Below are positions 34,190 through 61,590 of a stretch of 64,000 nt of DNA, one piece after another. Source of the stretch: Oscillibacter valericigenes (lineage in GTDB: Bacteria > Bacillota > Clostridia > Oscillospirales > Oscillospiraceae); NCBI RefSeq assembly GCF_021531435.1, contig NZ_JAFBIS010000001.1:124001-188000 (forward strand), in the 5' to 3' direction. How positions within the stretch are numbered: the first letter of the stretch is position 1; the number at the start of each line of letters is the position of its first letter. The translations under genes and the position numbers were made by a program. Below the pieces are notes generated by a model. It searched no databases and had not been told where the DNA came from. It worked only from the letters and a program-made list of their open reading frames with translations.

Positions 34190-34211
34190 GGGGAAACTAC
34201 ATTACATAGAC

Positions 34212-34248
34212 CAAGGGGCGGGCGGCTCGCCCGCCCCTTGCTTCTTTT
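34212..34248 (+). terminator. Intra-operon terminator between the two PLP enzymes
   Basis: CAAGGGGCGGGCG pairs with CGCCCGCCCCTTG around GCT and is followed by CTTCTTTT. It may reduce expression of the downstream threonine-synthase-like gene. Confidence 0.6.
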
Positions 34249-34261
34249 GGGAGGAGACAGC

Positions 34262-35735: not shown

Positions 35736-37523
35736 ATGGAAAACAACCAGCTGCTGCCCTTTGAGCGTAATCGCTATTATGTTGGAAAACTGCTGACCTC
35801 CGCCGATTTTCAGGCGGAACAGACCTACAACAATCATAAGCGCCGTTTCCTCAACGAGATGATGTTCGGCAGCGGCATCGTCTGCGGCCTGGGCGTGTAC
35901 AGCCTGGACGACCTCTCCATCATGGTAGATTCCGGTGTGGCCGTGGACGGCTGCGGCCGGGAGATCGCCGTGGAGAGCCCGGTGGTGCGGAAGCTGTCGG
36001 CGGTGGAGGGCTTCGAGAGATTGGAGACGGAGCGGGCCACCCTGTGCCTGCGGTATCAGGAGGAGGACGTCCACCCGGTCTATACCGTCCGGGGCCAGGA
36101 GAGCGGAGAGAGCTACGAGTGCAACCGCGTCCGGGAGGGCTGGCAGCTCGTCCTGCGGGACAGCGAGTCCCTGCCGCCGGTCTGTCCTCCGGAGCCGGAG
36201 TTCCTGGCGACGGCGGTGCTGTACGAGGATGAAGATTACGCCGTCACCTGTGTCATGCCGGCCCAGAGTCCCTGCGGCGCGACGGTGCGGCTGGAGGTCA
36301 CGGTCCGCCGCCTGCGGGACACCGCGGAGCCCCTGACGCTGAAAGCCGCCGTGCAGACGCCGGCGTTTACCGATGAAAACGGCAGCCATGAGCTGCTCCT
36401 GGAGCTGCTGGACCTCTGCCCGGAGGGAGAGGCCACCATATCCCGGCATCTCAGAGCCCAATCCGTTCCGGCGCCGGAATCCGTGCTGCTGGCGGACAGC
36501 CAGAGCATCCAGGTCCGGGTGGGCGGAGACGAGCGGTCTGCCGGGGAGAATTTCATGCTGCGGGTGACCGTGGTGGAGGCGACCGCGGCGCAGATCGTGG
36601 ACTATGCGGCATCGTCCGCCAGCCTGGAGATGCGCAGCGCCGCCAGCGGCCAGGAATTCGTGCCCCTGGCGGAGATCTCCCTTCAGCGTACCCGCAACGC
36701 CTATCTGATCGAAGAGATCCGCACCACCGGTGTGCGGCAGTACATACGGACGGCGGCCACCGACGCCCTGCGGCAGGAGCTGGAGGGCTGGTTCCGACCC
36801 GCTTCCGCCGTGTCCGCCGACAGCCCGGCGGCCCGGAGCGCGGTACCGCCGGCGGAGTGCCGGGCGGAGCCCATCTACGCCACCGGCGTCTGTGAGATCC
36901 CCCTGGGCACCAATATGCGCCGGGGCCAGGTGGCGTATTCCGATGAGATCGTTCATGGCCTTGGGGCGGGGACGGTGTTCGTGTCCGTGGGCGCGGAGTA
37001 TCTTGCGGATGACCCGAAGCTGGGGACCGCCGCCCGCAACACCATATACGGCAACGTGGACCTGTTCCCCCAGGAACAGGCGCCCACGGTGGCCGCTGAG
37101 ACGGCTGTGAAGGTGATGAACGACCGGGGCAGCTTTGTGGTGGCGGCAAGGCTTCTGGAGGACAGCACCCAGGTGGTGCTCCCCCTGCGCTGGGTGGCGG
37201 TATCCCTGCCCGGCAGCGGCGAGGAGAGCAAGATCCAGAAGCTGTCCGGCAAGAGCATCGCGGCGGTACAGCCCACCGTGGTGATGGCCGCCCGGGAGAG
37301 CCATTTCTTCAACGTGCGCTTCAACAACATGGAGCCCTGCACACTGACCTACGAGCTGACGGAGAAGGACTCCGGTGAGATCACCTCCGACGGCATTTAC
37401 ACCGCTCCCGGACGGGAGGGCGTCTTTGAGATCCGCATCTCCTGCGCGGAGCTGCCGTTGATCTCCACCTACGCGTACGCGGTGGTGAAAAAGCGGGACG
37501 CCCGGGAAGACGAGAAAGCATAA
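35736..37523 (+). CDS. Contractile-injection-system-associated protein, uncharacterised
   Basis: A 595-residue soluble-looking protein with no signal peptide. Its first 60 residues (RNRYYVGKLLTSADFQAEQT, then NHKRRFLNEMMFGSGIVCGL) match an N-terminal module recurrent in extracellular CIS clusters, where it precedes beta-rich domains. The rest contains alternating strand-rich segments and, at about residues 440-590, Ig-like sequence (e.g. RWVAVSLPGSGEES and CTLTYELTEKDSGEITSDGI). Its role is unknown; a structural or baseplate-decorating function is possible. It is the first gene of the rightward locus, 34 bases before the next gene. Confidence 0.6.
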   Translation: MENNQLLPFERNRYYVGKLLTSADFQAEQTYNNHKRRFLNEMMFGSGIVCGLGVYSLDDLSIMVDSGVAVDGCGREIAVESPVVRKLSAVEGFERLETERATLCLRYQEEDVHPVYTVRGQESGESYECNRVREGWQLVLRDSESLPPVCPPEPEFLATAVLYEDEDYAVTCVMPAQSPCGATVRLEVTVRRLRDTAEPLTLKAAVQTPAFTDENGSHELLLELLDLCPEGEATISRHLRAQSVPAPESVLLADSQSIQVRVGGDERSAGENFMLRVTVVEATAAQIVDYAASSASLEMRSAASGQEFVPLAEISLQRTRNAYLIEEIRTTGVRQYIRTAATDALRQELEGWFRPASAVSADSPAARSAVPPAECRAEPIYATGVCEIPLGTNMRRGQVAYSDEIVHGLGAGTVFVSVGAEYLADDPKLGTAARNTIYGNVDLFPQEQAPTVAAETAVKVMNDRGSFVVAARLLEDSTQVVLPLRWVAVSLPGSGEESKIQKLSGKSIAAVQPTVVMAARESHFFNVRFNNMEPCTLTYELTEKDSGEITSDGIYTAPGREGVFEIRISCAELPLISTYAYAVVKKRDAREDEKA

Positions 37524-37557: not shown

Positions 37558-38430
37558 ATGGTTTACTACGCCCAGGGTATGGAACTGGAAGTGGTCTCCC
37601 AGGCATTCCACGGCAGCGTCAACGATGTGGCCGTGTGCCGGGACCGGCTGTCTGCCTCCGGTACGCTCTACACGCTGCTGGCGGTCCACGACCGGGAATG
37701 CGCCCGCAAAATGCTGATGGTCATGGAGGACAGCCAGCGAACAGGAGAAGCTTCCTGCCTGCTGTGCTTTTCTCAGAACGAGACGATGCTGTTTTTGTTC
37801 CCTTACCGGGAGGAGCGGAAGTTTTCCGCCTTTGCGCCTGGGCAGGTGACCAGTCCGGAGGCGGGAGAGGCCATCTGCATCAATCTGGTGATGGAGTGCC
37901 TGTCCACCAGCCTGCCGTGGCCGCTGCTGTACCTGGTACTGGAGCAGGACTGTGTGCAGATCGCCAAGGACAACACGGTCTATTTCACTATGATCCTGGA
38001 TCTGAAAGACCTGGAGCCGGCCCGCACGGAGCGGAACTGTGTTTCCAGCTGCGCCCGGCTGCTGCTGGATCTGCTGGCGGGCCCGGCGGCGGGCGGCAGA
38101 CGCCGCAAAAAGCTGAAGAGCTTTGAACTGATCCGGAAAAAAACGGGGAAGAACGCCTATACCGGCTTCCCGGAGCTGTATCAGGATATTAAGGTGACGG
38201 CCCTGACGAGGGTGAAGCCCTCCCTGAAAAGCACGTTCCGCGTTTTCTGGCAGAACAACCGGGACCGGCTGTTCCGGCTCCTGCTGGTGCTCTGCATCCT
38301 GCTGGCGATTGCCGCGGTGGTGATCCTGGTCTCCCAGCTGATCTTCGGCGATGTACCGCTGCTGCGGCTTTTCCGCCACACCTTTGATGTGATCGGGACG
38401 GAAAATCTTCACCAGGGAGGACGCTCATGA
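37558..38430 (+). CDS. Single-pass membrane protein of unknown function
   Basis: A 290-residue protein. Residues 1-180 are a mixed alpha/beta cytoplasmic-looking domain with no signal peptide (starts MVYYAQGMELEVVSQAF; contains LVLEQDCVQIAKDNTVYFTM). A basic linker (RRRKKLKSFELIRKKTGKN) follows, then one strong transmembrane helix at about residues 238-262 (FRLLLVLCILLAIAAVVILV) and a short outside tail. The layout, an N-terminal soluble domain then a C-terminal anchor, fits an adaptor or sensor partner. GAAGGAGG precedes the ATG, and the stop overlaps the next start by four bases. Confidence 0.6.
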   Translation: MVYYAQGMELEVVSQAFHGSVNDVAVCRDRLSASGTLYTLLAVHDRECARKMLMVMEDSQRTGEASCLLCFSQNETMLFLFPYREERKFSAFAPGQVTSPEAGEAICINLVMECLSTSLPWPLLYLVLEQDCVQIAKDNTVYFTMILDLKDLEPARTERNCVSSCARLLLDLLAGPAAGGRRRKKLKSFELIRKKTGKNAYTGFPELYQDIKVTALTRVKPSLKSTFRVFWQNNRDRLFRLLLVLCILLAIAAVVILVSQLIFGDVPLLRLFRHTFDVIGTENLHQGGRS

Positions 38431-40415
38431 AAAGAATGACGATCCTGCTGGCTTTGCTGCTGGCAGGCATGCTGGCAGTCGCGGGCGCGATGCCCTGGGG
38501 ACTGCCGAATACCGAAGACCTGGTGCCCGGTCCCGCGGAGCGGGAGGACGGCGCGGTTTTAGCGGCGGAGAACCGCTGGTTCACCTCCCGCGTCTACACC
38601 CTGCGGGAGGGACGCGTCGCTGAACTCTATGAGGAGAGCCGCATCCGGGGCGGCGAGGAAAGCCGCATCGTCCGGGCGGCGGCCCTTGGAGACGGAGCCT
38701 GCTTCATCCGCATTCTGGGCGATGGAGCGGACTGGGAGCTGGTGAAGCTGGAAAACGGCAAAGCGGAGCTGCTTCACAGGGATACGTTTGAGGATGAAGT
38801 GACGGTCACAGGCCTGCGGGTCCGGGGAGATTCTTACTGGATCACGGCCGTGGGCGCAAACAAAGCTATTTTTATCTATGAATACACGGCGGCGGACGGC
38901 GCCGGGCTGCGGATGATCCTGCCGGCCTGGTGGCTGCGGGAGACAGTGACCGCGGAATATGACGGCGAAACCGTTCGGGCCACCACCGCCTATGGCGACA
39001 CCTGCTTCCTGACAATGGACGGACAATGCACCTATTCTCCCGACGCGGCGGAGGCCCCGCTGCCTTCAGTCAGCGCGAAGGGTGGCGGATGGCTGCTGTG
39101 CAGGAGAGCGGTGCTGCTGGCCGCGCTGGTGCTGTGGCTGCTGATCGCCGTGGTACTGCTGGCAGCCGGCGCCATCAGCCGCCGGGCTGACCGGCTGGCA
39201 AACCGGCTGACGGCGGTAGGAGGCGCGGCGCTGCTGCTGGCCCTGCTGACGTCGGCGGGCACGGTGTTCTGTGTGGTACGTTTCACCGGCGGCCTGCTGG
39301 CATCCTGGCGGGCCGGGCGGATGGCGTTACTGGCCGCACTCATCATTTGGCTGCTGGCGCTGGCGGCGCTGCGGATCGCCGCGGGCCGCATTACCCGGCC
39401 GGTGGCTGCCCTGAAGCGGCAGATGGACCGCGTGTCGGACGGGGACATGACCCCTCAGGAGCCTGCCGCCGGAAAAGACGAGCTGTGCCGGATGGACCAT
39501 TCCCTGCAGATGATGTGCATGAACCTCTCCGTGTGGCGCTATGAGTCAGCCGGCACGATCCAGTCCTATAAACGTTTTGTGCCTGAAAAAATGGCGGAGC
39601 TGCTGGAGCGGCCCGTGGCGGAGGAGATCCAGCTGGGCGACAGCCGCCGTATGGTGGGCAATGTGGGCGTGTTCTCGGTGGGGAACCGGGCAGAGGCCCG
39701 GAATACGCTGGAGGACGCCGCGTTTGTGGACTTTATCAACCACAGCTTCGGCATTTTCCACGACTGCGTTGAGGAAAATCACGGCTGGATGCTCTCCAGC
39801 GGGCTGCGCCTCTCCGCTATGGAGGCCCTGTTCCCGGATTCTCCGGCGGACGGCGTCCGGGCCGGACTGGACTTCCTGGGGAAGCTCCGGGTGCGGACAG
39901 CGGAGGACATTCCGGAGCCGAGAGCCTGCCTGATCTTACATAAGGCATCCTTCCTGTACGGCATCGCCGGCCAGGAGGAGCGGCTGTTCCCCTATCTTTC
40001 TTCCTCTGAACTGGAATTTTTGGGCGGCTTTACCCAGCAGTTCGACGAGGCCGGTGTGCGTATCGTGGCCACGGAAGCTTACTGGAAGCAGCTGGAGGGC
40101 TGCGGCTTCACGGGACGCTACATCGGTTTCGTGTCCGCGGGCGAGCGGAGCGGAGCCTACAAGCTCTATGAGGTGCTGGACGCCTATCCGGGACTGGAAC
40201 GGGAACTGCGGCGGGGCTACGACCAGCGGTTCCAGGAGGCCATCAATCTGTTCTATCACAACGATTTCTATCTGGCCCGCAATGTGTTTTCCTCTTTGCT
40301 GCGGGCCTGTCCGGGCGACGGTATCGCCCGCTGGTACCTGTTCGCCTGTGAGCACTTTTTCAATCAGGAAGGCAACGCAGAGCCTGATTACAGCCTTTTT
40401 GGGATCGAGGCTTGA
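38427..40415 (+). CDS. HAMP-linked class III adenylate-cyclase-like membrane protein, probably catalytically inactive
   Basis: A 662-residue protein in this order: an N-terminal signal anchor (about 4-22), an extracellular beta-rich domain (about 30-215), three hydrophobic helices (about 227-250, 262-286, 298-319), a HAMP-like linker (about 317-368, RITRPVAALKRQMDRVSDGD), then a nucleotidyl-cyclase-like domain from about 383 (YKRFVPEKMAELL, then IQLGDSRRMVGNVGVFSVGN). Normal cyclases have LFSDIRGFT and GDAIMALFP metal sites; here these read VFSVGNRAE and LRLSAMEALFP, lacking the metal-binding Asp residues. The C-terminus (about 595-645) is the helical tail common in such proteins. It therefore probably senses and signals by conformation rather than by making cAMP (inference). 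Confidence 0.7.
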   Translation: MKRMTILLALLLAGMLAVAGAMPWGLPNTEDLVPGPAEREDGAVLAAENRWFTSRVYTLREGRVAELYEESRIRGGEESRIVRAAALGDGACFIRILGDGADWELVKLENGKAELLHRDTFEDEVTVTGLRVRGDSYWITAVGANKAIFIYEYTAADGAGLRMILPAWWLRETVTAEYDGETVRATTAYGDTCFLTMDGQCTYSPDAAEAPLPSVSAKGGGWLLCRRAVLLAALVLWLLIAVVLLAAGAISRRADRLANRLTAVGGAALLLALLTSAGTVFCVVRFTGGLLASWRAGRMALLAALIIWLLALAALRIAAGRITRPVAALKRQMDRVSDGDMTPQEPAAGKDELCRMDHSLQMMCMNLSVWRYESAGTIQSYKRFVPEKMAELLERPVAEEIQLGDSRRMVGNVGVFSVGNRAEARNTLEDAAFVDFINHSFGIFHDCVEENHGWMLSSGLRLSAMEALFPDSPADGVRAGLDFLGKLRVRTAEDIPEPRACLILHKASFLYGIAGQEERLFPYLSSSELEFLGGFTQQFDEAGVRIVATEAYWKQLEGCGFTGRYIGFVSAGERSGAYKLYEVLDAYPGLERELRRGYDQRFQEAINLFYHNDFYLARNVFSSLLRACPGDGIARWYLFACEHFFNQEGNAEPDYSLFGIEA

Positions 40416-40458
40416 CAAAACCGGCACCCCGTGACCGGGGGCCTGGGAGGTGAGGAAC

Positions 40459-41676
40459 GTGAAAAATCTGCTGAATATGCTGTTCTCGGCGGCCAGAGCC
40501 AAGATCATGCCGCTGTGGATCAAGCTGCGGATGTGGACCTCTCCGGCGTTCCTCCGCTCTAAGGTCCTGATCAAGGTTCGGGAGTTCTTCTCAAAGCTGG
40601 TGGATGTCCGGCCCCGGGACAAGCGGGACTACTATCCCATCTTCCGCTGGCTGGTCAGCAAGCGGTTAGCATTTGCGCTGGTCGTGGCGCTGGGACTTGT
40701 GTCAGTGCTGTACATAACCAAAATGCTGCCGGATAATTTCACGAAAGACAGTGGGGGAATTCCCACCTACAAGTATCGGGCTGTCCCGCTGAAATTCCAC
40801 ACGGGCACGGTGAACATCCTGGCGAAAGACGGACATGTCGCCTACACCGGCGAGGTGGACGGCGGCGCGGCCTCCGGCCAGGGAACGCTGTATGCCGCCG
40901 ACGGCAGCACCGTCTATGAGGGGCAGTTTGAAAACAGTATGTACAACGGCGAGGGGACCCTGTATTACCCCAACGGCGGCCCGAAATACGTGGGGAGCTT
41001 CACCGACAACGAGTACAACGGCACCGGCAGCAGTTACCGGCCCAACGGCGTGCTGGAATACAGCGGCGACTATGTGGCCGGCGTCCGCACCGGAAGCGGC
41101 ACGCTGTACAACAGCGTGGGGAGCAAGGTGTTCCAGGGCGGTTTCCTGGGCGGAGAGATCGTCTATCACGACTTCCTGACCCGGCCAACCAGTGAAGTAC
41201 CGGAACTTTACAGCGGCGAGACGGCAGTGTATCAGAGCAATGAAGAGTATTGCGTTACCATGCCGGAGATCGACGCGGTGTACGCCGTGAAGGACGGGAG
41301 CAACACCCTGGAAAACGAGTGGACCGTGGACCGGGTGTATGTGCTGCACAGCAGCGTGCCCCTGGAGAGCGGCACCTGCACCACTCTCCGCCAGCTGATG
41401 GCCTCCATGGGCGAGCCGCTGTATTTCGGCACCGCCTGGGTGGACCTGCCGGAGGCGGTGGCCTGGGACCTGGCGGCAGAGGAACAGCCGGACCGCATGA
41501 GTCCGGTACGGATCGAATCCACCGCCAGCTTTGAGAATGTGTTTTCCGTCTCGGATTATGACCGGGATTTCCAGATGTACCTGTATACGTTCGAGCAGAA
41601 CGGACTGCTGTATACCTTCTATTTCACGGGCGCGGGTGAGTCCGAGTTCGTGATGTACGCCATTGAAAAAGCCTGA
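40459..41676 (+). CDS. MORN-repeat membrane protein
   Basis: A 405-residue protein with a basic cytoplasmic N-terminus (about 1-66), one transmembrane helix (about 67-88, LAFALVVALGLVSVLYI) and an extracellular part. About residues 115-215 contain MORN repeats (YEGQFENSMYNGEGTLYYPN, YVGSFTDNEYNGTGSSYRPN, YSGDYVAGVRTGSGTLYNSV). The C-terminal domain (about 230-405) is unrecognised and ends YTFYFTGAGESEFVMYAIEK. MORN repeats usually mediate protein or lipid contacts. The GTG at 40459 was chosen because GGGAGG lies eight bases upstream, rather than GTG 40450 which overlaps that site. Confidence 0.7.
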   Translation: MKNLLNMLFSAARAKIMPLWIKLRMWTSPAFLRSKVLIKVREFFSKLVDVRPRDKRDYYPIFRWLVSKRLAFALVVALGLVSVLYITKMLPDNFTKDSGGIPTYKYRAVPLKFHTGTVNILAKDGHVAYTGEVDGGAASGQGTLYAADGSTVYEGQFENSMYNGEGTLYYPNGGPKYVGSFTDNEYNGTGSSYRPNGVLEYSGDYVAGVRTGSGTLYNSVGSKVFQGGFLGGEIVYHDFLTRPTSEVPELYSGETAVYQSNEEYCVTMPEIDAVYAVKDGSNTLENEWTVDRVYVLHSSVPLESGTCTTLRQLMASMGEPLYFGTAWVDLPEAVAWDLAAEEQPDRMSPVRIESTASFENVFSVSDYDRDFQMYLYTFEQNGLLYTFYFTGAGESEFVMYAIEKA

Positions 41677-41777: not shown

Positions 41778-43766
41778 GTGGGGCCCACCATGACCGCGGA
41801 TACCCAGGCGGCCCTGAATTCCCGCACCTTCAGTCTGGAGCAGGCGCAGCGCATGGCTATCAGCTCCAGCAGCGACATCAGCAAGCAGAACAACCAGATC
41901 ATTTTGAAGCAGATGAAGTATGTGGAGGCTGTGGAAGGTATCCGGGCCAAGGTGAAGAACCTGCGCAGCTTCCGGTGGAGCCCGCTGCTGAGCTTCAAAT
42001 TCCCCCAGCAGCTGGATTTGACCGAAGAGTACGATTTGAATGTGAAGCCGCTGACCATCCAGACGGAGATCGACACGCTGAGACATGGTCTGGATGATTT
42101 GAAATATGAGATCACCCACAAAGCCAACCAGCAGTATTTTGAGGTCTACCTGCTGCAGGAGACCACAGCGTTTACCCAGGACCGTCTGGATGACGCAAAG
42201 ACACAGCTGGAGCGGAACCAGGCGGGCCTGCGCACTGGAAAGGCCACCCAGAGCGATGTGGATAGGGCGCAAAAGTCGGTGGATACGCTGGCGAAAAGCT
42301 TGTCCACACAGCTTCGTGAGTTTGAGAACGCCAAGACGAAGCTCTCCGAGCTGATAGGCGTGGACGTCACCGTGGGATATACCTTCGCAAACCCCTTTAA
42401 AACGGCCTCCATCCCCCGTGAACAGCTGGAGAACCTGATCCAGTACACCCTGGACCATGACCAGTCCTTCTACGAGGCGAAGGCTGCCACCTCCACGGCA
42501 AAATTGAACGTGGAATCCTATGAGAGCCTGATGCGCAGCGAATACGGTTCCAAAATGAACATCATCCAGAACTACATCAACATGGCGAAGCAGGGGATGG
42601 ATGTGGACTACGGCGCGTTCCAGCTCAAGTACAAGGAGATGCTGGCGGCGCTGGACAAGCCCTGGAACGGCAAGATCCGCATTCTGTTTTTCAGCTTTAC
42701 CAAGGAGTGGTTCAAGGGCGAGATCGACGGCACCCGGTATATAGAGGACGAGATGTACGCCGTGTACACCGCCTGTATGGAATACGGAAACGCCAAAAAA
42801 GACCAGGACGCTCTGGAAAAGGACCTGCGGAGCCAGGTGCGGGACACCTATGAAAATGTCGTCACCGGCTGGAACACCTATGAGACGCTGCAAAGTTTGG
42901 CATCTGAATCCAGGGAGACGCTGGACCGGCTGCTGGTGCTGAACCGGATGGGAAAAGCCACCTACACCGAGGTGGCCGACCAGCAGGAGGCCTATCAGGT
43001 GGCCCAGCAGGATGCGCTGGACGCGCTGAAGGAGTATAACGTGACCCTGAGCGAGTTCGACCGGCTGACCTGCGGCGCCGTGACGAAGTACCTGAAGGGC
43101 ACCGGCATGGGGCTGGACACCGGCGAGGGCGGCGACGCCTACGCGATCCTGGACCCCATCAACGACCCCTACTATTACATTTACACCAGTGTGGCGGACC
43201 TGACGTTTTACATCGGCGTCAGCATCCCCGACGGCTTTGAGCCGGCGATCGACAGTTTTGAGGTGTGGTACGCCGGGACCCAGATCGGGGAGCGGACCCA
43301 GGTGGGAACGGAGCTGCGGCACCTGACGCTGGACTATCAGGATACCAGCGAGCTGACCATCCGCCTGTACAACGGCGATACCTATGTGGACGAGTGCACG
43401 GTGGACGCCTCCGTTCCCCGGGACGTGCTGGACATCCAGCGGCAGGAGACGGAGACAGAGACGGAGCGGGTCATCGGCAGCTACGCGGTGACTACCACCA
43501 TGGAGGGCGGCGTTTCCGTATCGGAGCTGAAGCTGACCGTCAACGCGGCGGAGAATGCTTCGACCTATACGCTGACCTATGGCGACCAGGGCATCTACAC
43601 CACGGAACAGCGCCCGGTCACGGAGTCCTTCACCTATTTGACGCTGCTGATCGCCAGCCTGGAGGATGTGACCGCCAAGCTGTACGACAGCGGCGGCGGG
43701 GAACTGATGGACATTCGGTTTGACACATCCACCCAGGAACTGGTGACTACCGTTTCCGGGACATGA
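41778..43766 (+). CDS. TolC-like coiled-coil protein, N-terminus probably frameshifted
   Basis: A 662-residue frame from GTG 41778. About residues 18-430 are long helices with the outer-membrane-factor pattern ([72 protein letters not shown]). About 470-662 is a strand-rich C-terminal domain not found in classical TolC. No ribosome binding site precedes 41778. Upstream, an ATG at 41684 with GAGAAAGG begins another frame, and a +1 shift in the G-tract at 41698-41708 would join it to this frame and create a perfect signal peptide ([16 protein letters not shown]). The true gene therefore probably starts at 41684. Confidence 0.7.
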
Positions 43767-43783
43767 GAAAGGAGGGACCGGCC

Positions 43784-46681
43784 ATGGAGAAAAAACTGCA
43801 TATGCGCCGCTGGCTCACCGTCTTGACGGTGGTGCTCCTGGCGGGGTCCCTGATACTGGGGACGCTGTACGCCCAGGGCTTTTGGGACGAGAGCCGGGCC
43901 GTCCACATCAAGGCGCGGGACATCGAGTCCTCCACCCTGGCCATCGGCACCCATTTGATTCACCTCTCCGCTCTGACGGACAGCATCTATGAGATCGCGG
44001 AAAAGTCGGCGGAGGAATCCGGTCAGAACCAGATCTACTACAAGTCCGAATTGGGTGGTGATACTTGGTTCAATATCTCCTCCGCAACCTCTCTGGCGGA
44101 CATCACCACCTCCGGTGCTCCTGTTACGGATGAGGAAATTGAGGCACTGTACTTTACCCACCACACCAAGTCCGACAAGATCACCTATGACCTGCGGACG
44201 GGAGAAGCGGTGAACATCTTCGATATCCGGGACCCCTATGATCTGGAGTCTTTGGAGGAACTGTCACCCCTGAAGATGCAGTATGACCAGATACGGGAGA
44301 CCAAAGGGGAAAACATTGTAACGAAGCGGATCGATGAGATCTGGAAGACGCCGGTCAGCGGTGAGGATGCCCCGGAGACCATTCAGAAAGCGGATGAAAG
44401 ACTGTCGGGTCTGCAGGCGTATTTGAACGTGCTGAAGGAAAACGGAGCAGACTCCCGGGAGATCGACAAAGTCTCAGGCGTGATGGAGGCGGTGGACGCT
44501 GCCCGGCGTTATGAGGTATTCACTGCTCTGGAGCCGCAGCTGGCCAGCTTATTGGATGAGATCAGCAAGGAAAAACTGATTTTCACCACCATCAACGACG
44601 AGGGGCAGGAAGAGAGAAAGGTGGAGGAGCTGAAGGAGAGCGAGCCGGAGGTGATGAGCGCCGTGGCGGAGAGCCTGGGCAATATACAGGATGCACTCAT
44701 CACATACGGCGGCAAGATGCTCGGCGAGGGCACCACGGTGATGAGCCAGGCGGAATACGAGTTTTCCAACGCCCTCATCAGCCATGTGGAAAACGATGAC
44801 CACGCCTCCTGCGACACCGATGTACAGAACCTGCTGCTGCTTGACAACATCATGAACGACATCATCTCCGACCGGCCCCGGGAGCTGGCGCTGCTGGAGA
44901 ACACGCTGCTGCCCAAGGCAGGTTCCGCCTACCTGAAAGCATTGAGCCAGGGCGAGAGCGCGGAATACCGGGCGGAGGTGGCAAAGCAATCCTCCCAGGC
45001 GATTTTGAACCGCCTCATCAGCGAGAACGAGGGCGAAGTGAACACCCGGCGGGGGGAACTGGAGTTCCTCATTGAAGCCAAGTGCAGCCGCATCGACGCT
45101 TCCAGCGGCATGACCTTTATCGACCATCGGCTGGAGCTGACGAACAGCAGCTATGCCTCCGCCATCCCGCAGGATGCTTTCGCGGAGACCAGCCAGGCTT
45201 CCGTGGATTCCCACATTGCATTCCTGACGCAAAAGCGCCGGGAGCTGGAACTGGCTACCGGCGGCAACGCCATGGATGAGTTGACCGCCAAGAAAGAGGA
45301 TTTGCAGACCCAGCGGCTGTCGGCACTGGACAAGAATGACCTGGCCGGCGCCAAGGCGCTGGAGCAGCAGATCGCCGCTGTGGAAGAAGAAATTCGTGCC
45401 ATAGAAGCCGAGGCTGCCGCGCAGATCTCCCAGACCCGGGATAAAATCAAAGACCTGGAGGCACAGGTGGCCGCGGACCCGGAGAACACGGACCTGAAAA
45501 ACCAGCTGAGCGCTGCCAAGGCGGAGCTTTCCAACCTGGAAAACAGCCTGTCCGACGGTTCTTTGGGCGCTATGGTGGCCCAGTTGAAGAAGGATGCGCT
45601 GGACGGTATTTCGGATGGCGGAACAGAGGGTATGGAGACAGCCTCCGATGCGGTGGACGCCCTGTCCGGCCTTTTGGCGACGGACCCGAAGTTGGTGCTT
45701 CCGGCCATGCAGGAGATCTACAACAAGCTGCTGCTGGGCGACGGCGACCAGGGCCTCATTGATTCCATTGAGCAGGCTATTCTGGAAAATCCCAATGCCC
45801 TGCGGGATGAATTGACCGCATCTCAGCTGAAGGAGATCGCCAGGGAATATCTGGCGGAAAACGGCAGCGGGACTGGTACAGGCACCGGAAGCGGTACAGG
45901 CAGCGGAACCGGGACAGGTACAGGAACTGGTACGGGTACAGGAACTGGTACAGGCGCCGGAAGCGGCACGGGTACAGGAACCGTAACAGGAACCGGCACA
46001 GGTACCGGCACAGGAACCGGCACAGGTACCGGCACAGGAACCGGCACAGGTACCGGCACAGGTACCGGCACAGGTACCGGCACAGGTACCGGCACAGGTA
46101 CCGGCACAGGTACCGGAACTGGTACAGGAACCGGGAGCGGCACCGGAAGCGGCGGAACATCGCTGCTGGGCACCGGGGGCATCACCCGGGCGGCAGCCAG
46201 TGACGCGCTGATCGAGCTGGTGGCCCTGCAGCTGTACTGCGACGAGACCGGCAGCCGGGCAGCCTCGCAGCGGTTTGCTTCCGTGGCCCAGGAGCAGAAG
46301 AACCTGGGCAATCCCATGGTGTTCCAGCGGGTGCAGGACAGCACCGGCGAATACGTGCCGCTGTCGGCCATCCAAGCTTTGACAGGCCGCCGGTATGTCT
46401 GGAACAAAAACGCGTCTCTGGGCGTGCTGGCCCGGGGCAGCGATTACTATGGCTTTACCGTCTATTCCACCAAGGTCCTGCGGGACCGGGATGGGGAAAA
46501 GACGGAGGAGATGACCCGGAGCGCCCGCTATCAATCGGGCGTCCACATCCCGGAGGAATACGCCTACGACCAGTTCGGCGTACAGGCGCTGTACCTCACC
46601 GGGACCTCACTGGGCTGCGCCTGTGACGACGCGGTGCTGGCAAAGGCGCAGGAGCTGTTCGCGCAGTTCCTGGCGGCCTGA
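43784..46681 (+). CDS. Large anchored protein with coiled coil, Gly-Thr linker and C-terminal domain
   Basis: A 965-residue protein. A basic N-terminus and single hydrophobic helix (about 10-30, [20 protein letters not shown]) look like an uncleaved anchor or signal. About 45-480 is a helix-rich region of unknown fold. About 495-592 is a coiled coil ([20 protein letters not shown]). About 694-792 is an almost pure Gly-Thr/Gly-Ser repeat. About 810-965 is a globular C-terminus with a segment resembling a copper-amine-oxidase-type stalk domain ([20 protein letters not shown]). The arrangement suggests a wall-spanning linker that presents the terminal domain outside. ATG 43784 has AAGGAGG upstream. 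It lies 27 bases before the DUF4255 gene. Confidence 0.6.
45863..46159 (+). repeat. In-frame Gly-Thr codon repeat
   Basis: About 99 codons encode alternating Gly-Thr (some Gly-Ser, one Gly-Ala and one Val). In the DNA the unit is roughly GGTACCGGCACA, 12 bases, with near-identical copies around 46010-46120. Perfect copies make the tract prone to length change by slippage in multiples of 6 or 12 bases, which keeps the frame. Confidence 0.9.
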
Positions 46682-46708: not shown

Positions 46709-47302
46709 ATGGCTGATTATCCCATCATATCGGATGTGTCCCAGCACATGGTGCGCATCCTCCGGGAGAAGATGTGCCCGGAGCCCATCCCATCTCCCAA
46801 CAACATCTCCGTTTCCTCCCCGGCGGAACAGGACGTGGACTACATCCTGGGCCTGTACCTCTACGACATTCGGGAGGAGGGCGAGGTGGCCGTTCCCTCC
46901 CTGGTAGGGACGGGGCGGACCCGCCTGCGGCGCCCTCCAAGGCCGTACAGCCTGTACTACATGCTGTTTATCAACGGTTCCTCCCAGATGGGCCTGAAGG
47001 CCGCTGACACCCAGAAAATTCTGGGCCGGGCGGCGCAGATCATCAACGACGGCAACTCTGTGGACCCCAGGCGGCTGCAAAGCTGGCTGGAGACCCAGGA
47101 ACCGCCCATCATATTCTCTCCGGCAAAGATCTCCCTGGAGGATAAGGTCCGCGTCTGGTCCGCCATCAACAAGCCCTATCAGGTAAGCTTGTTCTACAAG
47201 GCGGCGCCGGTGTTCCTCTCCAGCGAGATCGTGGTGGACCCGCCCCGGGTCACGGAAGCGGAATTCACCATCGGGATGCTGGACGGAAGGGGGGATGGAT
47301 AA
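46709..47302 (+). CDS. DUF4255 (Pvc16-type) tail terminator/cap protein of a contractile injection system
   Basis: A 197-residue protein of the DUF4255/Pvc16_N family, which caps the sheath-tube end in extracellular CIS. Recognisable are an N-terminal ISDVSQHMVRILREKM, a middle DVDYILGLYLYDIREEGEVA, the RPPRPYSLYYMLFI strand and TQKILGRAAQIINDG. It is the first structural gene of the CIS core in this window, ahead of the PAAR-like and sheath genes. GGAGTG precedes the ATG. Confidence 0.82.
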   Translation: MADYPIISDVSQHMVRILREKMCPEPIPSPNNISVSSPAEQDVDYILGLYLYDIREEGEVAVPSLVGTGRTRLRRPPRPYSLYYMLFINGSSQMGLKAADTQKILGRAAQIINDGNSVDPRRLQSWLETQEPPIIFSPAKISLEDKVRVWSAINKPYQVSLFYKAAPVFLSSEIVVDPPRVTEAEFTIGMLDGRGDG

Positions 47303-48058
47303 ATGGAAAAAACAACGGTGTTCACCCACAGCCTGGACCTGGCTCTGCGGCTGGTGGACACCACCTCCGGCAGAGGCGTATCCGGCAGGGGCATGGCGGT
47401 CCGCATCGACGGCAAGCCCGTCCGTTTCGGCGAAAAGGGCGACGGGATGCTGATTTTTCAGAACCTTGGAACGAGACGCTTTCGGTTGGAGATCTCTTCT
47501 CCCGCCTATGAGACGGCGGAGCGGGAGGTGGACTTGGACGCCCTCGGAAAAGGTATTCCCTTATTGGAGCTCCACCTGATCCCCGGCCCCGGTTATCCCG
47601 ACGCCGCTGAATTCCAGACCCTGGAGGGGACGCTGCCGGGCATTGAAAACCTGTCGGCTGTCCGGGTGGGAGACAACGCCTGCCTCATCCGGGAGTTCGA
47701 CCCCCGGAAGCGGCTGGTGAAGCTGTTCAATCCCCATCATCTGTCCCTGGACCGGGTGCTGTACGCCCTGGTGGACCCGGACAACGGCTGCTACGAGCCT
47801 TTCCAGATCGTCCGGACCCTGGACGACCAGACCATCAAAACCGACCGGGTGCTGGAGACAGCCTTCCGAAATTACTTCCCCATCAGTCCTACGGTCATGG
47901 GAACATGCGGCGGCGACGGCCGCTACTGCCTCCGGGTCCGGGACGACGGCACGGCCTGCAAATGGCTGGTCCGGTGGGAAGTGCAGGGAACCGCCCGGTT
48001 CCGAACGGTGGATTTCCGGCAGGAGCCCCACCCGCATTTGGAAGAGGGGGGTGGCTGA
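47303..48058 (+). CDS. CIS-locus protein with carboxypeptidase-regulatory-like N-terminus
   Basis: A 251-residue protein starting directly after the DUF4255 stop. The first 95 residues have the pattern of an Ig-like/CarboxypepD-regulatory domain (LALRLVDTTSGRGVSGRGMA, then LGTRRFRLEISSPAYETAER). The remainder (about 100-251) is unrecognised, with VRVGDNACLIREFDPRKRLV and a Cys-containing CGGDGRYCLRVRDDGTACKW. Proteins of this layout occur next to DUF4255 genes in CIS clusters, but the role is not established; a decoration or tip-associated part is possible. Confidence 0.55.
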   Translation: MEKTTVFTHSLDLALRLVDTTSGRGVSGRGMAVRIDGKPVRFGEKGDGMLIFQNLGTRRFRLEISSPAYETAEREVDLDALGKGIPLLELHLIPGPGYPDAAEFQTLEGTLPGIENLSAVRVGDNACLIREFDPRKRLVKLFNPHHLSLDRVLYALVDPDNGCYEPFQIVRTLDDQTIKTDRVLETAFRNYFPISPTVMGTCGGDGRYCLRVRDDGTACKWLVRWEVQGTARFRTVDFRQEPHPHLEEGGG

Positions 48059-48443: not shown

Positions 48444-48520
48444 ACCAATCAAACACCTAAATTCGTTCGACAATGAAAGGAGGAAGGTTTCGGGATCACG
48501 TTCCCGGAATCGAAAGAATT

Positions 48521-50224
48521 ATGGCTGAGTATCTGTCTCCCGGCGTCTATGTGGAGGAGTACGAGTCCTCTCCCCGTGCCATCGAAGGCGTTGGCACCAG
48601 TACCGCGGGCTTCATCGGTATGACGGTGAAGGGCCCCACCGTGGGCGCTCCCTCCCTGGTTACCAGCTTCGCCGACTTCCAGCGGCAGTTCGGCGGCTAC
48701 CTCAGCGAGTACACCCACGGCGAGTACCGCTACCTGCCCTATGCGGTGGAGCAGTTCTTCACCAACGGCGGCACCCGCTGCTATGTCACCCGCGTCATCC
48801 CCGACGACGCTAAGGTGGCCACGGCCAAGTCCGGCATCCTGTCCCTGCGGGCTGCCAACGAGGGCAAGTGGGGCAACCGCATCCTGGTCAGCTTCACCAC
48901 CGTCAACAAGCGGAAGATGCAGTTGATCGCCAAGGAAGGCGACCTGGTGTACACCGCCAAGAGCACCGCCGGCTTCGCCGAGGGCGACCTGGTGGAGTTC
49001 GCCGGTGAGATGAACCGCATTTCCGCCATCTTCGAGAATACCGTCACCTTCGAGCAGGCCTTTGCCGGCGACCCCGTGGATAACGCCCTGGTGCCCAAGG
49101 CGGTGCTGTACTCCGTGGAGATGGACGTCACCGTCCGCTACGAGGCCGACACCGAGGCCTACACCGGACTGAACCTGAATCCCACCTCTCCCAACTACGT
49201 GGCCGATAAGCTGAAGGCCAGCGCCCTGCTGGCTGTGGAGGATGTGGATCCCGCTCCTGAGATCGCCAACCCCGTCAGCCTGATCTTCGGCGAGGGCAAG
49301 CTGGCCGGCACCCTGGCCTTCACCGGCGGCAGCGACGGCACCGTGGAAGCGGTCAACGCCGGCACCTTCATCGGCGATGACAAGGGCCCCGGCAAGCGCA
49401 CCGGCATCCAGTCCTTCATCGAGAACACCGTGGCCAGCATCATCGCTGTTCCCGGCGTCACCATCCCTGAGGTGGTGGTCTCCCTGGTGGCCCACTGCGA
49501 GAACCAGCAGAACCGCTTCGCCATTCTGGACATTCCCAAGGACAAGGTGAAGGTCAATGACGTACTGGAGTACCGCGGCATCGTGGATTCCACTTACGCC
49601 GCCATGTACCACCCCTGGGTCCAGGTCTTCGACCCCATCACCAAGAAGCCCGGCTTCGTACCGCCTTCCGGCTCCGTGGCCGGCGTGTACTCCCGGACCG
49701 ACGTGACCCGCGGCGTCCACAAGGCTCCCGCCAACGAGGTTGTCCAGTGCACCGGCCTGTCCGTGGGCTACAACAACGGTGAGCAGGACATCCTGAACCC
49801 CGCCGGCGTCAACCTGATCCGCGCGCTGCCCGGCCAGGGCATCCGTGTCTGGGGCGCCCGCACCGCCAGCTCCAATGCCAGCTTCAAGTATGTCAACGTC
49901 CGCCGCCTGTTCATCTATGTGGAGCAGTCCATCAAGGCCGCTACAAACTGGGTGGTGTTCGAGCCCAACAACTCCTCTCTGTGGGCCCGTGTCCAGATGA
50001 CCGTGTCCTCCTTCCTGGAGAATATGTTCCGCGCCGGTATGCTGGCTGGTGAGTCCCCCGCTGAGGCCTTCTTCGTGGACATCGGTCCCAGCACCATGAG
50101 CCGGGACGACATCATGAACGGCCGTCTGATCTGCGAGATCGGCATTGCCCCCAGCCGTCCCGCCGAGTTCGTCATCTTCCGCGTGACCCAGTTCACCTCC
50201 GAGGCCGCCGGCGGCGCCGAGTGA
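48521..50224 (+). CDS. Contractile tail sheath protein
   Basis: A 567-residue sheath subunit that polymerises around the tube and contracts on firing. The N-terminus AEYLSPGVYVEEYESSPRAI is diagnostic, with STAGFIGMTVKGPT and YAVEQFFTNGGTRCYVTRVI. The C-terminal region has the conserved YVNVRRLFIYVEQSIKAATN and WVVFEPNNSSLWARVQMTVS, where the handshake strands reside. The start is set by homology; the ribosome binding site is modest (GAAAG), while a strong AAAGGAGGAAGG lies farther up at about 48476 with a short hairpin between them. This is the central marker of a contractile system. Confidence 0.96.
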   Translation: MAEYLSPGVYVEEYESSPRAIEGVGTSTAGFIGMTVKGPTVGAPSLVTSFADFQRQFGGYLSEYTHGEYRYLPYAVEQFFTNGGTRCYVTRVIPDDAKVATAKSGILSLRAANEGKWGNRILVSFTTVNKRKMQLIAKEGDLVYTAKSTAGFAEGDLVEFAGEMNRISAIFENTVTFEQAFAGDPVDNALVPKAVLYSVEMDVTVRYEADTEAYTGLNLNPTSPNYVADKLKASALLAVEDVDPAPEIANPVSLIFGEGKLAGTLAFTGGSDGTVEAVNAGTFIGDDKGPGKRTGIQSFIENTVASIIAVPGVTIPEVVVSLVAHCENQQNRFAILDIPKDKVKVNDVLEYRGIVDSTYAAMYHPWVQVFDPITKKPGFVPPSGSVAGVYSRTDVTRGVHKAPANEVVQCTGLSVGYNNGEQDILNPAGVNLIRALPGQGIRVWGARTASSNASFKYVNVRRLFIYVEQSIKAATNWVVFEPNNSSLWARVQMTVSSFLENMFRAGMLAGESPAEAFFVDIGPSTMSRDDIMNGRLICEIGIAPSRPAEFVIFRVTQFTSEAAGGAE

Positions 50225-50259: not shown

Positions 50260-50757
50260 ATGGCTACTGATATGAACAGCGCGGGTATGGCTTATCCGCT
50301 GACTAAAATGAACTTCCTGGTGTCCATCCCTGACCTGGCCGGCTCCATGGCCGCCTTCAGCGAGGTCACCGGTATCGAGGCCAGCGTGGACGTGGTGGAG
50401 TTCCGCCAGGGCAACGCCCACTCCCTGGCTCCCGTCAAGATCCCCGGTCTGGTGAAGCACGGCAACATCACCCTGAAAATGGGCTACACCATCGGCAATG
50501 GCTTTAAGAAGTGGATCCAGGAGTGCGTCAGTGAGACCCGCGGCGCCATGCCCCGCAAGACCGTTACCATCGAGCTGCTGGACATCCGGGACGGTTCTCC
50601 CAACTCCGCCTATGAGACCGTCAAGAACAACATCGTCTGGATTTTGAAGGAAGCCTGGGTCACCAAGTATTCCGGTCCCGACCTGAACGCCTCCGCCAGT
50701 GAGGTCGCCATCGAGACCGTGGAGCTGGCCTACGAAGAGCTGACCATTCCCGACTGA
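50260..50757 (+). CDS. Tail tube protein
   Basis: A 165-residue inner-tube subunit of the gp19/Hcp-like fold: YPLTKMNFLVSIPDLAGSMA, FSEVTGIEASVDVVEFRQGN, LVKHGNITLKMGYTIGNGF and the C-terminal ETVELAYEELTIPD. It lies 35 bases after the sheath gene with AAAGGAG before the ATG, the standard sheath-tube order. It forms stacked hexamers through which cargo would pass. Confidence 0.94.
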   Translation: MATDMNSAGMAYPLTKMNFLVSIPDLAGSMAAFSEVTGIEASVDVVEFRQGNAHSLAPVKIPGLVKHGNITLKMGYTIGNGFKKWIQECVSETRGAMPRKTVTIELLDIRDGSPNSAYETVKNNIVWILKEAWVTKYSGPDLNASASEVAIETVELAYEELTIPD

Positions 50758-57520: not shown

Positions 57521-57550
57521 AGTAAAATAACTTGAACGGAGGTGACGGAC

Positions 57551-58351
57551 ATGGCAATGGGCATCGGTCAGCAGGCACTAGCTTCGCTGACTGGCAATGT
57601 GGAGACAGCGCTGCTGGTCATCCATGATTACCGGGAAAAAGCCGCGCAGATGAGTGCCGGCGTCACCGGGGGACTCAGTGCGGCGGAGAACCTCAGCTCC
57701 CTGAACCAGTCCCGCATCCGGGCCACCGCCGCGGCGCTGGAGACCGGTTCGCCGCCTACCTATCCCGGCAGCTTGGACCGCATCCTCCGGGTGCAGTTCA
57801 ACCCCTCCGAGCTGACGCTGAACGCCTCCGCTGTTCCCAAGAGCGAGCAGGACAGCACCACCGGCCGGAGCAGGACTATGGCGGTGGAGGATGCCAAGCT
57901 GAATCTGACGGTGATGCTGTATTTCGACGATATGGACACTTACGATGCGTTCATGTGGGACAAATTCACCGCCGGCATGACGGCCCAGGGCGTCGCTAAC
58001 CTGGCGAAGATGGGCATGGAGCTTGGCGGAGGGCAGAAGGTTCACAGCATCCAGGGACAGGTGGAGGCGCTGGTAGCGGCTCTGCGGAATCCCTATACCC
58101 GGCTCATCAGTTTCCGGTGGGCGGATTTTACCTTTATCGGCCAGCTGAACACGGTCCGGGCGAACTACACCATGTTCTCCCCGTCGGGGCGGCCCATCCG
58201 GGCGCAGGTGCTGCTTCGGATCCAGCATGAGATGGATCCGAAGACGCTCCAAGGGTGGTACGACAGCTTTGACAAGGCCTTCGGCGGCGACACCAGCAAT
58301 CTGGTGAAGACAGAGCAGAACATGAGCAATCTGCTGAATCTGAGCCTGTAA
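57551..58351 (+). CDS. CIS tube-adaptor (Afp7-type) protein, first copy
   Basis: A 266-residue protein with the tube-adaptor core: GSLDRILRVQFNPSELTLNA (the YxxQFNPxel strand), AKLNLTVMLYFDDMDTYDAF, RLISFRWADFTFIGQLNTVR and NYTMFSPSGRPIRAQVLLRI. In Afp/PVC this adaptor joins the tube to the spike hub and ends in a LysM domain; no LysM is present here. ATG 57551 is chosen behind GGAGG. The following gene is a paralogue. Confidence 0.78.
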   Translation: MAMGIGQQALASLTGNVETALLVIHDYREKAAQMSAGVTGGLSAAENLSSLNQSRIRATAAALETGSPPTYPGSLDRILRVQFNPSELTLNASAVPKSEQDSTTGRSRTMAVEDAKLNLTVMLYFDDMDTYDAFMWDKFTAGMTAQGVANLAKMGMELGGGQKVHSIQGQVEALVAALRNPYTRLISFRWADFTFIGQLNTVRANYTMFSPSGRPIRAQVLLRIQHEMDPKTLQGWYDSFDKAFGGDTSNLVKTEQNMSNLLNLSL

Positions 58352-58369
58352 GGGAAGGGAGGGAACTTT

Positions 58370-59143
58370 ATGAGCTTGGTAAGTACCCTGGCTAATTCGG
58401 CCCTGGGCAGCGTGCAGAAGGCGCTTTTGATCATTCATAAGTCGGATGCCTCCCAGATAGATTCTTCCCAGGTGGCGGCGGCAACGCAAAATGCCCTGCT
58501 GGGCGCCGCTGCGGGCATGGCCGCCACCAGTGCTGCCATGCAGGGCGCGGGGATGAACACCAGCGTGATGAAGGTGCAGTACAATCCCACATCCTTGTCC
58601 ATCCAGGCCAATGCGGAGGCCATCCCCTTTACTTATTTGCAGCAAAATATCGACAGCGGCATCCCCAACCAGAGCCCCCGGCCGCCCATGGTGGTGTTGT
58701 CGGTGGAGCTGATCTTCGACGCTATGAACCCCAAGGACGCCTTTATGGCGGAAAAGTTCAGCCTGTCCACCGGAGGTATCGTATCCTCGGTGGCGGGCGG
58801 TATCCAAACCGCCAAGGGCGGCGGCTACACCGTCCAGCCCCAGACGGACGGCCTGATCGCCGCCCTCATGCGGCCCAGCACCCGGGTGGTGACCTTCCGG
58901 TGGGCGGACATGGCCTTTACCGGGCAGCTCATCGAGGTCCAGGCGGAATACACCATGTTTTCCGTCTCGGGAAAGCCGGTCCGCAGCAAGGTCCGGATGA
59001 ACATCGCCCAACAGGTGGAGTCCGACGCGGATATCCAGTACTGGAACAAGGTGCTGGATACCACCTTCAGCGGCAACGGAGAGGCCGGCGGAAAGGACAT
59101 GGGACAGCAGCTGGGGAACCTGCTGAATCTGGGCGCGTTCTGA
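58370..59143 (+). CDS. CIS tube-adaptor (Afp7-type) protein, second copy
   Basis: A 257-residue paralogue of the preceding protein: MKVQYNPTSLSIQANAEAIP, VVLSVELIFDAMNPKDAFMA, RVVTFRWADMAFTGQLIEVQ and EYTMFSVSGKPVRSKVRMNI align throughout. The N-terminus differs, being longer and Ala-rich, and the C-terminal helices share NLLNL. Two adaptors suggest either a heteromeric ring or two stacked rings at the tube-hub junction. It lies 18 bases after the first copy. Confidence 0.78.
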   Translation: MSLVSTLANSALGSVQKALLIIHKSDASQIDSSQVAAATQNALLGAAAGMAATSAAMQGAGMNTSVMKVQYNPTSLSIQANAEAIPFTYLQQNIDSGIPNQSPRPPMVVLSVELIFDAMNPKDAFMAEKFSLSTGGIVSSVAGGIQTAKGGGYTVQPQTDGLIAALMRPSTRVVTFRWADMAFTGQLIEVQAEYTMFSVSGKPVRSKVRMNIAQQVESDADIQYWNKVLDTTFSGNGEAGGKDMGQQLGNLLNLGAF

Positions 59144-59183
59144 CGCATTGAAACATCTTTGAAACGGAAGGGAGAGAGCGTGT

Positions 59184-60710: not shown

Positions 60711-60729
60711 GGAGGAATAAGGAGGAGCC

Positions 60730-61590
60730 ATGGGGCTTTACGATATCATTGATGAGATCACGGAGCGGCAGGTCACCAAGACCGAGACCGGGGACAACCG
60801 CATCTGGGGCGTGATGGTGGGCATCGTCGCCAAGAACTTCGACCCCAACAGCACTGCCTCCGGCGGCGTCAACTCCGGGGCCGACGCCATGGACGGGCGG
60901 GTCTGCGTGACCATTCCCACCCGGGATGTCAATGCCAACGAGCTGAAGTGGGCCCGGGTGGCCATGCCCTCCAGTGGCAGCAAGTGGGGCCACTACTTCC
61001 TGCCGGAGGTAGGGGACCAGGTGCTGCTGGCCTTTGAGGGCGGTAATATCGAAAAGCCCTATGTGATCGGCTGCATCCCCAAGACGGCGGATAAGTTTTT
61101 GAAGGATTCCGTGGATAAGGACAACCAGTTCAAGCGCATCGTCACCCGCCACGGGACCTCCATTATTTTCGAGGACAACAGTACCGATGAAAACGGCCTG
61201 AAGGATAAGTTGACCCTGGAAACGGCGGGGCAGAAGCTCCAGATCCTGATGGACAACGAAAACGAGAAGATCCGCATTGGCGACAAGGCCAAGGAGGACT
61301 TCATCGAGATGTACACCAAGGAGGGCTCCGGCACTCTGACGGTGCAGATCAAGAGCAAGATCGACATCAAAGTAGGCGACAAGATCACCGTGACGCTGAA
61401 TGGTGAATCCGGCGCTGTGTCCGTCAAGGCGGATTCTATCCAGCTGGAGGGCGCCAACGGCGTCACCACCAAGAGTGACAGCGCCGTGAAGATGGAGGCT
61501 CCCCAGGTGGCGGCCAACGCCAGCTCCGCGCTGAAGATGGAGAGCTCCGGCACCGCAACGGTGTCCGGCTCCACGGTATCCGTGGGATAA
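60730..61590 (+). CDS. Spike protein (gp5/baseplate assembly protein V-like)
   Basis: A 286-residue protein. An OB-fold at about 25-115 (RIWGVMVGIVAKNFDPN; RVCVTIPTRD; RVAMPSSGSKWGHYFLPEVG then DQVLLAFEGGNIEKPYVIGC) is followed by a beta-strand-repetitive C-terminal half (TLTVQIKSKIDIKVGDKITV and SVKADSIQLEGANGVTTKSD) that would form the triple-stranded needle. GGAGGAATAAGGAGG precedes the ATG, a doubled ribosome binding site. It pairs with the hub before it and the PAAR-like tip. Confidence 0.9.
   Translation: MGLYDIIDEITERQVTKTETGDNRIWGVMVGIVAKNFDPNSTASGGVNSGADAMDGRVCVTIPTRDVNANELKWARVAMPSSGSKWGHYFLPEVGDQVLLAFEGGNIEKPYVIGCIPKTADKFLKDSVDKDNQFKRIVTRHGTSIIFEDNSTDENGLKDKLTLETAGQKLQILMDNENEKIRIGDKAKEDFIEMYTKEGSGTLTVQIKSKIDIKVGDKITVTLNGESGAVSVKADSIQLEGANGVTTKSDSAVKMEAPQVAANASSALKMESSGTATVSGSTVSVG

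Follow-up and report, generated by a model that had tools for sequence, protein, structure and literature searches.

A membrane adaptor for a contractile injection system (CIS) has been described in Streptomyces coelicolor, where CIS function and firing depend on the membrane protein CisA; that report describes CisA as a bitopic protein whose C-terminal domain is periplasmic-binding-like and whose N-terminus is unstructured (PMC12237407). The locus analysed here lies in a 64,000-nucleotide stretch of an Oscillibacter valericigenes genome (NZ_JAFBIS010000001.1, positions 124,001–188,000; this whole stretch is hereafter called the window). It shares homologues of sheath, tube, cap, hub and spike with extracellular and cytoplasmic CIS (eCIS and cCIS) and, unlike these systems, adds a membrane module consisting of a pseudo-cyclase, a kinase-fold protein and a membrane MORN protein. 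Our subject is the pseudo-cyclase, which is like CisA in being a membrane protein encoded with a CIS. The word ‘cyclase’ is absent from the main text of the CisA paper (PMC12237407), neither ‘cyclase’ nor ‘HAMP’ occurs in the main text of an eCIS survey (PMC8213781), the cyclase in the accessible part of PMC8894135 is a two-hybrid tool, and no report linking a CIS to a cyclase, a HAMP domain or a pseudo-kinase was seen among the papers listed by searches of the open-licence PMC literature.

With the class III adenylyl/guanylyl cyclases (4yus, 5o5l, 3r5g, 2w01, 1ybt) the window protein has fold and homology in common over residues 406–590, and two glycine columns that are invariant in canonical cyclases are shared by the pseudo-cyclase family. 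Unlike those enzymes, it has all six catalytic positions replaced, carries a C-terminal helical tail and occupies a fixed place in CIS loci. Its parts, in window coordinates, are the following.

38427..40415, + strand: membrane-anchored pseudo-cyclase, 662 residues, ATG start (open reading frame list, Pfam, AF2, Foldseek, VIA, alignment)
38556..39038, + strand: beta-rich, probably extracytoplasmic domain, residues 44–204 (AF2 secondary structure, hydrophobic segments)
39381..39509, + strand: HAMP, residues 319–361 (Pfam PF00672, E 1.9e-6)
39642..40196, + strand: dead class III cyclase fold, residues 406–590 (Foldseek, VIA, replaced catalytic columns)
39669..39695, + strand: former metal site 1, VFSVGNRAE, residues 415–423, without Asp (alignment)
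39804..39836, + strand: former metal site 2, LRLSAMEALFP, residues 460–470, without Asp (alignment)
40197..40412, + strand: C-terminal helical tail, residues 591–662 (AF2 helices, conservation)

The AF2 model of the window protein, computed with 22 relatives (mean pLDDT 83.4), shows in order the beta-rich domain, long helices, a mixed domain at about 406–590 and the helices of the tail. All 50 matches listed when this model was compared with the PDB by Foldseek are class III cyclases, the best being 4yus (E 5.6e-10), and among these listed matches the target-normalised TM score reaches 0.77; VIA gave Z 18.3 over 228 residues with a root-mean-square deviation (rmsd) of 4.1. At the level of sequence profiles, we compared the family with 33 canonical cyclases, taken from 39 PF00211 loci of the same phylum and picked by profile score, not by catalytic residues (six weaker or partial loci, L097, L098, L101, L127, L129 and L130, were left out). 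The profile of all 44 CIS-linked members, which remained of 50 after six sequences from twice-counted genomes had been dropped, matched the canonical profile with an E of 4.8e-16; one distant CIS clade reached 4e-19 and the window’s own clade alone 1.5e-5, and unrelated pairings gave 0.33 and 0.57. Comparisons of the window’s clade with a poor canonical set, from which most canonical cyclases were missing (E 0.0028 and 0.0068), were set aside in favour of the set of 33. Furthermore, three distant members (L157, L158 and L159) exceed the Pfam cut-offs for both Guanylate_cyc and HAMP. Pfam Guanylate_cyc matched one of 21 members (E 0.046) and not the window protein, in which HAMP is the sole Pfam domain matched, and searching the PDB sequences with a profile built from 23 members brought up no cyclase. 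Sequence search alone nearly misses the fold, so structure was needed to make the link, which rests on the structural matches, the profile comparison and the three distant members above the Pfam cut-off. The CIS-linked pseudo-cyclases have one origin: in a tree computed without the six catalytic columns, a quick search with several long branches and with rows L065, L074 and L075 dropped, all 49 CIS rows fall on one side of a branch with SH-aLRT 100.

The loss of the catalytic residues is pervasive. Across the six catalytic columns of the joint alignment, the typical canonical row reads D/K/D/T/N/R and the window protein S/S/S/Y/E/G; a second alignment with eight more relatives gives S/G/S/Y/E/G, differing only in the base-Lys column, which aligns poorly in the window’s clade. 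Both metal aspartates are present in 33/33 canonical cyclases vs 0/44 CIS-linked members, the first being kept in one CIS-linked domain and the second in four, and each is absent from all of eight further distant members. The transition-state Asn and Arg, likewise present in 33/33 canonical sequences, are found in two and one of the 44, respectively, with Glu and Gly standing at these positions in the window protein. The base-recognition Lys is kept in none of the 44, whereas the canonical set has Lys in 30 sequences and Glu in 3. The canonical IGD motif has an invariant Gly (33/33), which is Ser in 42/44 members. L157, L158 and L159 have lost both metal aspartates and the Arg but retain the catalytic Asn and, in two cases, the Lys. 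By these residue counts, the metal pair is lost in every member examined, and the members nearest to the canonical cyclases by profile keep other catalytic residues. Twelve columns are invariant in the canonical set. Most of the 44 members share three of these, two glycines at 0.98 and 1.00 and an Asn at 0.68; the catalytic ones are down to 0.02–0.09 and the other five to 0.00–0.18. Thus, with metal, transition-state and base positions all replaced, the window protein is, on its aligned residues, a catalytically dead pseudo-cyclase. The original prediction, that a class III cyclase fold follows a HAMP linker and that both metal-site motifs lack Asp, is borne out, the fold and linker by Foldseek, VIA, the profile comparison and Pfam HAMP, and the missing metal ligands by the alignment with the 33 canonical cyclases (Ser at both positions). 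Displacement of the aspartates, which that prediction had named as a refuting case, does not apply to the window protein, where no Asp falls within four columns of metal site 1 or of metal site 2.

The dead domain is under strong purifying selection. In comparisons with two close relatives, the cyclase domain had ratios of nonsynonymous to synonymous substitution rates (dN/dS) of 0.102 and 0.071 and the tail of 0.112 and 0.069; the beta-rich part gave 0.221 and 0.153, the membrane-HAMP part 0.253 and 0.308, and the gene as a whole 0.176 and 0.147. Two more distant comparisons gave 0.268 and 0.171 for the cyclase domain, again below the beta-rich and membrane parts; the tail gave 0.119 in one of them and was not computable in the other. 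Open frames of 655–1133 residues occur in 20/20 context loci. Since the dead domain and the tail are the most constrained parts, the protein is a conserved pseudoenzyme and not a gene in decay. The tail stands out in conservation as well: A634, R635, W636, Y637, L638, F639 and C641 are invariant across 23 members, and segment 591–645 has the highest mean conservation within the C-terminal region (42 members). Weak TPR matches in the tails of the distant relatives L157, L159, L161 and L162 hint that the tail may be TPR-like in some of them.

Preceding the cyclase fold, the protein has the arrangement of a receptor. Hydrophobic segments begin near residues 4, 228, 266 and 299, and the HAMP domain is preceded by membrane helices (Pfam and hydropathy). 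From the order of these segments, the beta-rich domain probably lies outside the membrane. HAMP was found in 17/21 members and in 5/6 full-length distant members, L156 being the full-length distant member without a Pfam HAMP match, and L158 and L159 have weak single-Cache matches N-terminal of HAMP.

The pseudo-cyclase is a conserved component of the locus of one CIS type. This type is marked by a conserved protein family, g35736, whose window gene lies upstream. Among 394 genomes of the order, a pseudo-cyclase matched beyond the HAMP part was found in 19, and the marker (E 1e-24 or better) in 20 genomes at 21 loci, namely the same 19 and G372, with two loci in G175; the co-occurrence has a Fisher p of 1.8e-31, and 19/21 marker loci of the order have the pseudo-cyclase. 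In these counts, 33/52 rows that matched only around the HAMP region and the weak marker rows G056 and G094 were left out, and G414, with a piece of its match on each of two contigs and a single stop within the second piece, was included among the 19. Of the two CIS loci in genome G175, one has the pseudo-cyclase and one does not. The context loci contain the marker in 20/20, the MORN protein in 19/20 and the cap gene in 17/20 cases, the three loci without a cap gene being truncated by contig ends. Among 398 genomes of the phylum, nine have a strong marker and nine a pseudo-cyclase, eight of them, including the window’s genome, in common; the exceptions are G635 (locus L239), without the pseudo-cyclase, and G687, without the marker. 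Here eight weak-marker genomes were not counted; in three of them the match, near 1e-31, was confined to the N-terminal 150 residues. In the pseudo-cyclase search, individual checks covered the stronger matches; 13/22 genomes matched more weakly than 1e-36, and at least one of these, G454, is a canonical cyclase locus. When named genomes were scanned, 29 loci emerged, each accompanied by one or more further genes of the module; the records carry the labels Oscillibacter, Agathobaculum, Anaeromassilibacillus, Flavonifractor, Pseudoflavonifractor capillosus, Lachnospiraceae and others.

A phage or plasmid origin was also considered and rejected: with the window protein as query, tblastn matched none of 50,697 phage records and none of 72,556 plasmid records, and three pattern matches in viral contigs were not confirmed.

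Two genomes outside the order encode short pseudo-cyclases of 307 and 309 residues (L161:4485-5408 and L162:9305-10234), which comprise cyclase domain and tail only, have no Pfam HAMP match and still stand beside MORN, cap and kinase-fold genes. Hydropathy flags one segment within the cyclase fold of these two members, which we judged to be a buried strand. It is the dead domain as such, then, that has been kept in these CIS loci.

The genes around the pseudo-cyclase in the window are these.

35736..37523, + strand: g35736-family conserved protein, marker of this CIS type (family search)
37558..38430, + strand: kinase-fold protein without kinase motifs, 290 residues (AF2, Foldseek, VIA, motif count)
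40450..41676, + strand: MORN-repeat protein, one predicted membrane segment near residue 68 (Pfam E 1.1e-11, hydropathy)
41778..43766, + strand: OEP/TolC-like module protein (Pfam PF02321, E 4.6e-16)
43763..46681, + strand: 972-residue module protein, N-terminal hydrophobic segment (context loci, hydropathy)
46709..47302, + strand: CIS cap protein, Pvc16_N (Pfam E 3.9e-30)
47303..48058, + strand: conserved 251-residue CIS module protein (context loci)
48473..50224, + strand: CIS sheath (Pfam, PDB sheath relatives)
50260..50757, + strand: CIS tube (Pfam PF06841, E 6.3e-32)
57542..61590, + strand: CIS_tube pair, hub (GPD, below Pfam’s cut-off) and spike (Phage_base_V) (Pfam)

The sheath is nearest to PDB 9ezm and then to 8bky and 9gtp, the last being an S. 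coelicolor baseplate entry according to PMC12237407. A sequence search of the PDB at E 0.01 gave no relative of the g35736 protein. The OEP/TolC-like protein has no predicted membrane segment and occurs in 30/62 loci, a set in which, as in all 62-locus counts here, several loci are controls or repeats of a genome. We take its host lineage to be single-membraned.

Directly upstream of the pseudo-cyclase, and overlapping its start by 4 nt, lies the gene for the kinase-fold protein (37558–38430), which has one hydrophobic segment near residue 241, close to its C-terminus, as a predicted anchor. In its AF2 model (pLDDT 86.2) the protein has a kinase fold: each of the 50 structures that Foldseek listed as matches is a protein kinase (best E 1.3e-6), and VIA gave Z 15.3 over 194 residues with an rmsd of 2.7. 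Nine of 55 rows (duplicates and the opposite-strand open reading frame of L056) were dropped for the motif count, in which, with a loose alignment, the VAIK Lys was found in 0/46 members vs 18/19 canonical kinases, the HRD Asp in 0/46, the DFG Asp in 3/46 and the catalytic-loop Asn in 26/46. The canonical counts for HRD, Asn and DFG (19/19 for HRD and DFG) are no control, because the 19 of 24 loci used were picked by those motifs. Pfam kinase models gave no match in 26 members at E 0.1. The family has 54 open reading frame matches in 59 loci (42/62 by a stricter count); in one locus the match lies on the strand opposite to the neighbouring genes (L056:6540-7793). The fold and motif counts make it likely that this neighbour is a second pseudoenzyme in the same module. 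Rv3910 (PDB 3otv), which we take to be a pseudo-kinase, is among its structural matches (Z 12.5); unlike Rv3910, the neighbour has a predicted C-terminal anchor, is linked to a CIS and is related to kinases only weakly in sequence (profile comparison, E 0.0035).

One other class III cyclase, with canonical catalytic residues, is encoded in the window’s genome (L001, G000:C77:47222-47740). No class III cyclase (PF00211, E 0.001) was found in 23/29 other carrier genomes, some of which are incomplete. A heterodimer with a canonical cyclase is accordingly rejected for most carriers and, since these 23 have no recognisable class III cyclase, such a heterodimer is not needed, and nor is signalling by a second messenger of the class III kind.

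What might a dead cyclase do for an injection machine? The original prediction placed it inside an injection locus, and the cap, sheath, tube, hub and spike genes found downstream by Pfam agree with this; its suggestion of a conformational switch would be in keeping with the protein’s anatomy and with the strong constraint on the dead domain, as would an adaptor that works on the CIS. We favour, with modest confidence, the reading that the pseudo-cyclase is a conserved pseudoenzyme receptor of the CIS, which would use contacts between proteins to link an external cue to docking or firing. The beta-rich domain would lie outside the membrane, and the membrane helices and HAMP would pass its conformational state inward to the cyclase domain, possibly in a dimer. 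The cyclase domain would make no cyclic nucleotide and, together with the helical tail, would serve as a protein-docking platform, working with the membrane-anchored pseudo-kinase and the membrane-bound MORN protein. This platform may hold the CIS at the cytoplasmic membrane, release it to fire, or both; docking and firing are proposed here by analogy with CisA. The short members, the constraint and the conserved tail together suggest that dead domain and tail are the part that the CIS needs, probably as the docking platform, and the HAMP matches suggest that in most members this part is coupled to the outside. The two genes further suggest a module of dead enzymes, pseudo-cyclase and pseudo-kinase, connecting the cell surface to the injection machine. 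More specifically, the overlapping genes might encode a receptor complex that docks the CIS at the membrane of gut Clostridia and acts as a two-pseudoenzyme switch triggered by an outside cue with no second messenger, a version that we put forward tentatively, as possible rather than probable. The system offers a concrete candidate, in gut Clostridia, for how a CIS without an envelope complex of the type VI secretion system kind meets the membrane and decides on firing. It also offers a clear case of a cyclase lineage without a metal site in every member examined and yet under strong selection.

Several observations weigh against this receptor reading. First, L189 and L190 lack the pseudo-cyclase and retain marker, MORN, cap and sheath, and L239 lacks it as well, on a contig that ends 4.4 kb past the last module gene; because three CIS loci of the same type do without the gene, it is not strictly required. 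Within the genus, furthermore, the gene is patchy, being carried by three of 36 other genomes (G028, G021 and G015) and present as a broken copy in one (G019). Second, the short members without HAMP argue against signal relay as a universal role, and the sensing part of the window protein could be reduced, because with 662 residues it is shorter than most relatives (784–1133 residues in 41/50). Third, the weak sequence relation to kinases leaves the term ‘pseudo-kinase’ resting mainly on the fold. Fourth, and bearing on the loss of catalysis, an Asp lies within four columns of site 2 in 34/44 members and of site 1 in 5/44, the window protein not being among them, and D405 and D430 are conserved in 18/18 members of the window’s clade, at non-metal columns.

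The alternative that survives best, itself unlikely, is a purely structural membrane anchor, in which the dead domain would fix the CIS, or the site where it is assembled, to the membrane and pass on no signal. Such an anchor would suit the membrane segments predicted for pseudo-cyclase, kinase-fold protein and MORN protein alike, the short members that stand within CIS loci without HAMP and, by analogy, the requirement for the membrane protein CisA in CIS function and firing (PMC12237407). A HAMP domain, however, would be superfluous for a pure anchor, and most members have one. Distinctly less likely is a nucleotide sensor, whose degenerate pocket would bind a nucleotide or cyclic nucleotide as a switch; this part of the original prediction finds no support in the present results. 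The fold and the two canonical-invariant glycines are retained, but the base-recognition Lys and the metal pair are gone from all 44 members, the transition-state residues from nearly all, and the IGD-motif Gly is replaced by Ser in nearly all. More improbable still is a role in controlling expression of the CIS operon, or in partnering a transcription regulator, instead of acting on the particle. A receptor with HAMP and a dead output domain could make its protein contacts anywhere, but the window protein has no Pfam DNA-binding domain at E 0.1 and its gene sits in a tight neighbourhood with particle and membrane genes. Very improbable, too, is that the protein is a working cyclase whose site is unorthodox, or that it pairs with a canonical cyclase as half of a heterodimer; the nearby aspartates, D405 and D430, and the canonical cyclase elsewhere in the window’s genome could be read in this way, but the window protein has no Asp near either site and has lost the transition-state Asn and Arg, and most other carriers have no class III cyclase match with which to pair. 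Finally, we give almost no credence to a decaying pseudogene or chance open reading frame, since, the broken copy in the same-genus relative G019 notwithstanding, whole-gene dN/dS is low and the frame is open in every context locus.

The broken module of G019 (L005, G019:C140) has pseudo-cyclase pieces in several frames, and one open reading frame there leads from the exit of the pseudo-cyclase HAMP into the last part of the OEP-like protein. Two genes for pyridoxal-phosphate enzymes (PALP) lie directly upstream of the CIS module in the window (32714–35506), and the same pair adjoins the CIS module in L064, with 98% identity.

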